Assembly: GCA_026416715.1 (NCBI GenBank)
Contig: JAOAEQ010000046.1
Location: 1 to 5,252, forward strand
Direction of reading: 5' to 3'
DNA from: a bacterium
GTDB lineage: Bacteria; UBP4; UBA4092; JAOAEQ01
DNA: 5,252 nucleotides
The notes below the pieces were generated by a model, which was not told where the DNA came from, did not search any database, and was given only the letters and a program-made list of their open reading frames with translations. Each line of letters begins with the position of its first letter. Within the stretch, counting starts at the first letter, position 1. This document shows positions 14 through 1,751 of the stretch, piece by piece. The position numbers and the translations under genes were made by a program.

Positions 14-64
14 CCCAGCATTGCATGCTGGGCTAGAATCAGACGCCCCGTTATCGGGGCTAAC
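14..64 (-). repeat. REP-like two-hairpin unit, copy A (inverted)
   Basis: Read on the minus strand, this unit starts GTTAGCCCCG and continues through a GC-rich hairpin, the linker GATTCTAGCC and a second hairpin. The first hairpin is GCCCCG (45-50) with CGGGGC (55-60) around a 4-nt loop. The second is CCCAGCA (14-20) with TGCTGGG (26-32), extendable by one pair. The same order of elements recurs on the plus strand at 77-128 and 150-198, which is why I call it a repeat unit and not an isolated terminator. It lies head to head with copy B, 12 bp away. There is no T-run directly after the hairpins in the minus-strand reading except a short A/T patch at 9-13, so terminator function is possible but secondary. 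No transposase is visible nearby. Confidence 0.65.
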
Positions 65-76
65 AAAATGCATTGG

Positions 77-128
77 GTTAATCCCGAAGGGATGATTGAT
101 TCTAGCCCAGCTATTCATAGCTAGCTGG
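77..128 (+). repeat. REP-like two-hairpin unit, copy B
   Basis: The unit starts GTTAATCCCG and has a short hairpin, ATCCC (81-85) with GGGAT (89-93). The linker GATTGATTCTAGCC follows, then a second hairpin, AGCTA (109-113) with TAGCT (118-122) around the loop TTCA. An alternative pairing is CCAGCTA (107-113) with TAGCTGG (122-128). The linker GATTCTAGCCCAG matches copy A exactly. The element is a direct repeat of copy C at a 73-bp offset and an inverted repeat of copy A. Confidence 0.7.
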
Positions 129-382: not shown

Positions 383-400
383 TTGGCATAATTGTTGCTT
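383..400 (+). promoter_or_regulatory. Sigma-54 (-24/-12) promoter
   Basis: TTGGCATAATTGTTGCTT carries the invariant GG (385-386) and GC (397-398) at the spacing of the RpoN consensus (TTGGCAC-N5-TTGCW). It matches in both the TTGGCA and the TTGCT blocks. The predicted start is near 410. A sigma-54 promoter needs an enhancer-binding protein, and the paired palindromes at 212-260 are at a suitable distance. The sequence downstream has no start codon before the terminator at 428-472. The product would therefore be a short RNA of about 60 nt, or a leader read through into the gene at 582. No rpoN or activator gene is in the window. Confidence 0.6.
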
Positions 401-409
401 CTCTATTTT

Positions 410-472
410 ACCAACACAATTCATCATAAGAGCAGAGATAAAATCACTCCCCCTTCAACTCTGCTCTTTTTT
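410..472 (+). ncRNA. Candidate short sigma-54-dependent RNA or leader
   Basis: This is the interval between the start predicted from the sigma-54-like element and the T-run of the intrinsic terminator. It contains no ATG and no credible reading frame. Most of it folds into the terminator stem, AAGAGCAGAG (428-437) with CTCTGCTCTT (459-468), enclosing a 21-nt loop. The loop carries the C-rich run CTCCCCCTT (447-455), which is complementary to purine-rich ribosome-binding-site sequences. Exposed C-rich loops of this kind are known in several regulatory small RNAs. The existence of the transcript is inferred purely from promoter plus terminator. I do not recognise it as a known RNA family. Confidence 0.35.
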
Positions 473-581: not shown

Positions 582-1751
582 ATGTCAGTTCAACCTGGGA
601 TCAATGTTTTATTAAAAGAATATCAGCAATTAATTCACGGAAAACGCGTTGGATTGATCACCAATCCGACTGGGATAACAGCGCAGGCTATCTCGAGCAT
701 AGATATCCTGAGTCGATTGCAGGGAAGTAAACTAACCGCATTATTTGCACCGGAACACGGGATTCGTGGCGATATTTTCGCTGGTGAAAACGTCGATACC
801 TATACAGATAAAAAGACTGGCGTACCGGTATATAGTCTCTATGGTAAAACGCGAAAACCGACTCCGGACATGCTGCAAGAAGTAGACGTGTTCGTGTTCG
901 ATATTCAGGATGTTGGCGCTCGATATTATACCTACGTTTACACAATGGCATACGCTATGGAAGCGGCGAAAGAAAACGGGATACCGTTTATTGTTCTCGA
1001 TCGACCGAATCCGATTAACGGAATTGTCGTTGATGGACCGATTCTTGACCCGAGATTCAGTTCGTTTATCGGATTATATCCGATTCCGGTTGTGCATGGA
1101 TTAACCGTTGGTGAACTCGCGCTATTGTTCAACACGGAATTCAAAATCAACTGCGAATTACATATTGTCCCGTTAAAAGGATGGAACCGGAAAATGACCT
1201 TTGCGGAAACCAATCTGCCGTGGGTGATGACATCGCCCCATATACCGCAGTCGAGCACTGCGTGGTATTATGCGACAACGGGGTTTATTGGCGAACTTCA
1301 TACGATTTGTGTCGGAGTCGGATATACGGTACCGTTCGAAATCGTTGGCACGAACTGGCTCGATAGCGATACCTTAGCGAACGAATTGAATCGGAAACAA
1401 CTGGCTGGGGTAGTGTTTCGTCCGATAACGTTTCGTCCGTATTATTATATTTTTAAAGACCAAATCTGCCAAGGGGTTCAGTTGCATATAACCAACGTGA
1501 CCGAGTTTTCTCCTGTTGCGACGGGACTCCACATTCTATCAACCATCTATACGATGTATCCCTGTCAGACCATTTTCCCTAACGATGCCGATAAACCGAA
1601 TAGTAGATTGAAGATGTTCTATCAGGCAATCGGAACTGATACCGTGCGAACGATGATAGAACAAGGGAACTCCGCTGAAGAGATTATCGCTTCTTGGCAA
1701 GACGGGTTAGAAACGTTTAAAAAAGTTCGCGAGAAATACCTGCTCTACTAA
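582..1751 (+). CDS. namZ: DUF1343 / NamZ-family exo-beta-N-acetylmuramidase-like protein
   Basis: The 389-residue product belongs to the DUF1343 (NamZ) family. Characterised members remove N-acetylmuramic acid from the non-reducing ends of peptidoglycan fragments for cell-wall recycling. Family hallmarks seen are GLITNPTG (24-31), LFAPEHGIRG (54-63), FDIQDVGARYYTY (107-119), LDRPNPING (139-147), the segment around SPHIPQSSTA (218-227) and PFEIVG (261-266). An N-terminal domain of about 225 residues and a C-terminal domain to the end fit the family layout and usual length. The segment that in members I recall reads like EGTN-S-GRGT is here GELHTICVGVGYT (247-259), so this is a divergent subgroup and its exact activity is uncertain. 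No signal peptide is visible, and an upstream stop prevents a longer start, so the protein is probably cytoplasmic. It is convergent with the glycan cluster, 18 bp between stops, with no clear terminator between. Confidence 0.88.
   Translation: MSVQPGINVLLKEYQQLIHGKRVGLITNPTGITAQAISSIDILSRLQGSKLTALFAPEHGIRGDIFAGENVDTYTDKKTGVPVYSLYGKTRKPTPDMLQEVDVFVFDIQDVGARYYTYVYTMAYAMEAAKENGIPFIVLDRPNPINGIVVDGPILDPRFSSFIGLYPIPVVHGLTVGELALLFNTEFKINCELHIVPLKGWNRKMTFAETNLPWVMTSPHIPQSSTAWYYATTGFIGELHTICVGVGYTVPFEIVGTNWLDSDTLANELNRKQLAGVVFRPITFRPYYYIFKDQICQGVQLHITNVTEFSPVATGLHILSTIYTMYPCQTIFPNDADKPNSRLKMFYQAIGTDTVRTMIEQGNSAEEIIASWQDGLETFKKVREKYLLY

Follow-up and report, generated by a model that had tools for sequence, protein, structure and literature searches.

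Which RNA is made from the intergenic region 5' of namZ in this UBP4 genome, and does it serve namZ or act on its own? The window, 5,252 nt long, is a whole contig (C46) from a genome of 2.96 Mb; besides namZ, it carries genes for two glycosyltransferases and one polysaccharide transporter, and the intergenic region 5' of namZ measures 581 nt. A preliminary description had pointed to a sigma-54 promoter running straight into an intrinsic terminator, and had proposed either a non-coding RNA of roughly 60 nt or an attenuator of the gene at 582. We conclude that positions 410-472 probably encode a small trans-acting regulatory RNA, about 63 nt long and driven by sigma-54, the loop of which would block Shine-Dalgarno sequences. 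The RNA at 410-472 is firm; its target is a prediction. The locus was compared in detail with UBP4_UBA6127 (G001), the sole genome of the same class among those compared. The features concerned are as follows.

211-228 (no strand): palindrome 1, TGCAGTAAATTTACCACA, 18 bp, centred at about -190 from the predicted +1, enhancer-like
244-261 (no strand): palindrome 2, TGCGGTAATTTTACCGCA, 18 bp, centred at about -157, enhancer-like
383-399 (+): sigma-54 promoter TTGGCATAATTGTTGCT, with -24 GG at 385-386 and -12 GC at 397-398, conserved in UBP4_UBA6127
410-472 (+): predicted 63-nt non-coding RNA, from the +1 spacing rule, direct reading and conservation
428-437 (+): 5' arm of the terminator stem, AAGAGCAGAG, fold z -6.1, with the core GAGCAGA the same in the relative
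438-458 (+): terminator loop ATAAAATCACTCCCCCTTCAA, 21 nt, holding the conserved TCCCCCTTC at 448-456, a predicted anti-Shine-Dalgarno seed
459-472 (+): 3' arm of the terminator, CTCTGCTCTT (459-468), and T-run, from direct reading, the fold and the relative
582-1751 (+): namZ, exo-beta-N-acetylmuramidase family, with NamZ_N/NamZ_C by Pfam

At the end of the contig, two repeat copies, at 14-61 (+) and 80-125 (-), do not reach the Rfam threshold for Acido-Lenti-1 (36.8 bits for the better copy vs. a threshold of 37). They contain an inverted repeat (27-41/97-111), and a similar 35-nt repeat is found again at 162-196.

Promoter, upstream palindromes and terminator hairpin

The near-consensus -24/-12 element of the preliminary description was recovered by direct reading. 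Its GG and GC are 10 nt apart, as a sigma-54 element of this type demands, and the spacing rule (12 nt after the GC) gives A410 as the predicted +1, in line with the start near 410 that had been announced. The objection foreseen at that time, a genome lacking rpoN, falls, as rpoN is encoded in this genome, which also has nine strong sigma-54 activators. When the 581-nt intergenic region was shuffled 2000 times with its dinucleotide composition kept, the exact motif TTGGCAYN5TTGCW never appeared. Genome-wide, YTGGCAYN5TTGCW gave 7 exact matches vs. 3 for the reversed control, and six of the seven are intergenic and oriented into a gene or into the RNA at 410-472. These six precede glnA (glutamine synthetase), a type IV pilin gene adjoining a sigma-54 response regulator, an L,D-transpeptidase, a small lipoprotein-like protein, a 48-aa protein and the RNA of the window. 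The looser TTGGCA-N6-TTGC showed no genome-wide enrichment (7 matches vs. 17 for the control); the promoter call is therefore drawn from context and conservation, the string by itself being insufficient. In addition, TACCA at or near +1 is common to the predicted starts of the RNA (window 405-416), glnA and the pilin gene (L120, L122).

The preliminary description had missed the two palindromes, which are arranged in tandem, 33 bp apart. Their common pattern, TGNNGTANNNNYACNNCA, is present in the sample of the window's genome (461 kb) only as this tandem pair at 211-261, and in the UBP4_UBA6127 sample (425 kb) only as a tandem pair at the orthologous RNA (TGGGGTAATATCACCCCA at -175 and TGGGGTATTTATACCCCA at -143, a spacing of 32 bp). 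Their distances fall within the range for upstream activator sites (about 100-200 bp), and their pattern and spacing are conserved. The layout is that of sigma-54 promoter enhancers, and position and conservation suggest that an activator may bind there.

Downstream of the promoter, the perfect 10-bp stem and the T-run to 472 are present as previously reported. The region 410-474 folds at -13.4 kcal/mol (z = -6.1), a value equalled by none of 200 shuffles, into one dominant structure, a single hairpin preceded by a short unstructured leader of 18 nt. Within this fold, as in the centroid fold of UBP4_UBA6127, TCCCCCTTC is unpaired, and the C-rich loop is the longest conserved unpaired stretch of the RNA. 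The view that no reading frame lies between promoter and terminator also stands: ATG, GTG and TTG are all absent from 410-472, and the UBP4_UBA6127 copy is likewise without a start codon. The preliminary description had recognized no family here, and an Rfam check of 400-480 gave no match above the gathering score. With rpoN, a conserved promoter and stem, and an intergenic context, the reading as a sigma-54-driven non-coding RNA of about 60 nt is well supported.

We thus propose the following sequence of events for a trans-acting RNA. A sigma-54 enhancer-binding activator would bind the palindromes at 211-228 and 244-261 and remodel the sigma-54 RNA polymerase at 383-399; transcription would run from about A410 into the intrinsic terminator, ending at about 472. 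The large terminator loop would then expose the conserved UCCCCCUUC, which may pair with G-rich Shine-Dalgarno sequences and block translation. In the window's genome, the best predicted target would be the mRNA of a single-span membrane protein of 48 aa, the gene of which also lies behind a sigma-54 promoter. The transcription layout is established by the sequence and its conservation, while the activity is inferred.

Predicted pairing of the loop with candidate targets

The candidate target gene was found at the following positions.

L121:1319-1465 (-) and L177:1492-1638 (+): gene of the 48-aa protein (a single hydrophobic span predicted), behind its own sigma-54 promoter

The loop stretch CACTCCCCCTTC is perfectly complementary over 12 bp to GAAGGGGGAGTG, in the Shine-Dalgarno region of this gene, a match that had also escaped the preliminary description. 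The pairing reaches -26.0 kcal/mol, while 333 sampled genes tested against the loop gave a mean of -7.0 (sd 3.4) and a best value of -18.6 kcal/mol, these statistics coming from about 0.45 Mb sampled in each genome, in which gene starts were picked by a simple rule. None of 5000 shuffled loops paired with the 48-aa Shine-Dalgarno region as well as the real loop. Apart from the loop's own complement, GAAGGGGGAGTG occurs twice in the window's genome, one occurrence being this Shine-Dalgarno region. The 48-aa protein has no Pfam match in either genome, and its gene looks real, since UBP4_UBA6127 has an ortholog of equal length behind a perfect sigma-54 promoter.

However, the pairing of the 48-aa gene falls to -4.5 in UBP4_UBA6127. 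Because the relative does not share this target, it stands as a prediction, and as the 12-bp match was noticed post hoc and the fit in the relative is poor, it may be due to chance. The type IV pilin mRNA ranks behind it as a candidate and is best placed in UBP4_UBA6127, where its Shine-Dalgarno sequence pairs with the loop at -19.3 (top 0.7% of 302 genes; equalled by 1.9% of shuffled loops). Among the other pairings computed, namZ is a poor target for the loop (-5.8), and the leader of the RNA pairs only weakly with the 48-aa mRNA (-5.8 and -7.3). Translational repression through Shine-Dalgarno pairing is the likeliest action, though any one target could well be a chance match.

The C-rich loop could also be a binding site for a protein, the sigma-54-driven RNA sequestering for example an RNA-binding regulator, like CrcZ. 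Such RNAs do exist under sigma-54 control (CrcZ/CrcY; PMC8657755), and a conserved loop with an unconserved best mRNA target is what this explanation would accommodate. However, the 63 nt hold a single copy of the motif, and the pairing of the loop with a sigma-54-controlled mRNA is far above chance. Sequestering RNAs usually bear several motif copies. We consider protein binding unlikely.

The unit in UBP4_UBA6127 and its probable independence from namZ

The whole unit has an ortholog in UBP4_UBA6127, with two palindromes, a perfect -24/-12 element (TTGGCATGCCTCTTGCT), the hairpin and the T-run; the sigma-54 site is followed by CGGAGCAGAGCACGCCAATCCCCCTTCGGGTTCTGCTCCTTATTTTTTT. We used a structure-fitted alignment of the two sequences, as a plain alignment put the promoter or the stem in the wrong place. 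The stem core GAGCAGA/TCTGCTC (7 bp) and the 9-nt loop sequence TCCCCCTTC are identical in both genomes. From the window to UBP4_UBA6127, the stem shows one two-sided change (A-U to G-C), one one-sided change and the loss of one outer pair. The conservation evidence consists of these two genomes, and 243 of 500 shuffles reach the same level; support for stem pairing is therefore suggestive, short of statistical proof. Loss of the GG/GC elements or of stem pairing in relatives had been named as the outcome that would count against the promoter and hairpin, and both are kept, with the two-sided pair change, in the one relative available.

A covariance model recovered both copies and no credible third among 386 genomes (384 others). 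Four weak matches in other genomes, without promoter, stem or loop, were rejected as chance. With a single-sequence covariance model, the glnA leader (28.7 bits) outscored the true ortholog (25.0 bits), and that model alone is therefore non-discriminating. No RNA copy was found at the NamZ loci of 80 other records except in UBP4_UBA6127, and no viral contig carries the hairpin.

The surroundings of the unit in UBP4_UBA6127 bear directly on the second proposal of the preliminary description, an attenuator of the gene at 582. Transcripts started at 410 would then mostly stop at 472, a factor permitting some read-through into namZ, as in Klebsiella nasF, where a leader attenuator consists of a sigma-54 promoter followed by a terminator. 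The gene is suitably placed, on the same strand and 110 nt 3' of the terminator, and the leader behind the sigma-54 promoter of glnA in the window's genome likewise contains a weak hairpin plus T-run (L224:3114-3229 (-), ATGCTA...TAGCATTTTTAT), itself a possible attenuator. However, in UBP4_UBA6127 some 2.9 kb separate the unit from the namZ homolog downstream of it, and the next gene after the unit is an unrelated 808-aa fn3-domain gene with its own strong terminator. An attenuator would be expected to keep its downstream gene and to have an alternative antiterminator fold; we found a different gene and one dominant fold. Moreover, the leader is only 18 nt in the window and about 12 nt in the relative, with no apparent antiterminator pairing, and an attenuator could do without the loop, where the longest unpaired conserved stretch lies. 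A two-hairpin recognition site of the ANTAR type, in which nasF differs, is also missing. We therefore do not favour attenuation of namZ and give it a low probability; namZ is probably a neighbour outside the 410-472 transcript. Because an unrelated gene and a terminator intervene in the relative, the RNA seems to stand alone, and it has the attributes of a small RNA: it is non-coding, has its own promoter and terminator, and is conserved independently of the next gene.

That the hairpin terminates an upstream gene and is preceded by chance by a sigma-54-like string is very improbable: although the contig starts at base 1, so that such a gene would lie outside the sequence, and exact TTGGCA-N6-TTGC is unenriched genome-wide, about 430 nt before the hairpin are gene-free, promoter, palindromes, hairpin and loop are kept together in UBP4_UBA6127, and a gap of about 170 nt separates the upstream gene there (prephenate dehydratase) from the promoter.

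Relation to known RNAs and wider meaning

Among known systems, the Qrr small RNAs of Vibrio (LuxO/SypG) combine a sigma-54 promoter and upstream activator sites with post-transcriptional repression (PMC10162802). The RNA of the window resembles them as a stand-alone RNA made from such a promoter with upstream activator sites, and differs as a single hairpin with no Rfam match. Qrr RNAs are longer and have several stem-loops. GlmY/GlmZ, CrcZ/CrcY and Pxr are also non-coding RNAs with a sigma-54 promoter, but they are longer, and multi-stem or protein-sequestering. In LhrC, which is LisRK-controlled and has two stem-loops, three redundant CU-rich motifs, one of them in the terminator loop, pair with the Shine-Dalgarno region (PMC4132741). 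The predicted covering of Shine-Dalgarno sequences by a C-rich terminator loop is common to both, whereas our RNA has one hairpin, one motif and sigma-54 control; it would work like the LhrC type and is not one of its members. It is a new family of an already known kind.

Tentatively, and with more doubt than confidence, we propose a new UBP4 family of minimal one-hairpin RNAs, with a terminator-loop seed, a dedicated sigma-54 activator and translational control of the sigma-54 regulon (48-aa membrane protein, type IV pilin). If this is true, the RNA would connect sigma-54 activators to one another.

Upstream of mutS in UBP4_UBA6127 (L195:1501-1705; G001:C62:33119), another perfect sigma-54 site is followed by a region of about 150 nt with strong structure, which ends in a long hairpin and a T-run (fold z -4.2) and has no Rfam match. 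This region is a candidate for a second sigma-54-driven non-coding RNA.

Sigma-54 is known to drive few small RNAs, and the examples that we found in the literature come from Proteobacteria and myxobacteria. With one hairpin of 63 nt and the seed in its terminator loop, such a regulator would approach the minimum size, and our result offers one concrete RNA-mRNA pair open to testing. A conserved case in an uncultured candidate phylum suggests that enhancer-dependent transcription is coupled to RNA control more widely.
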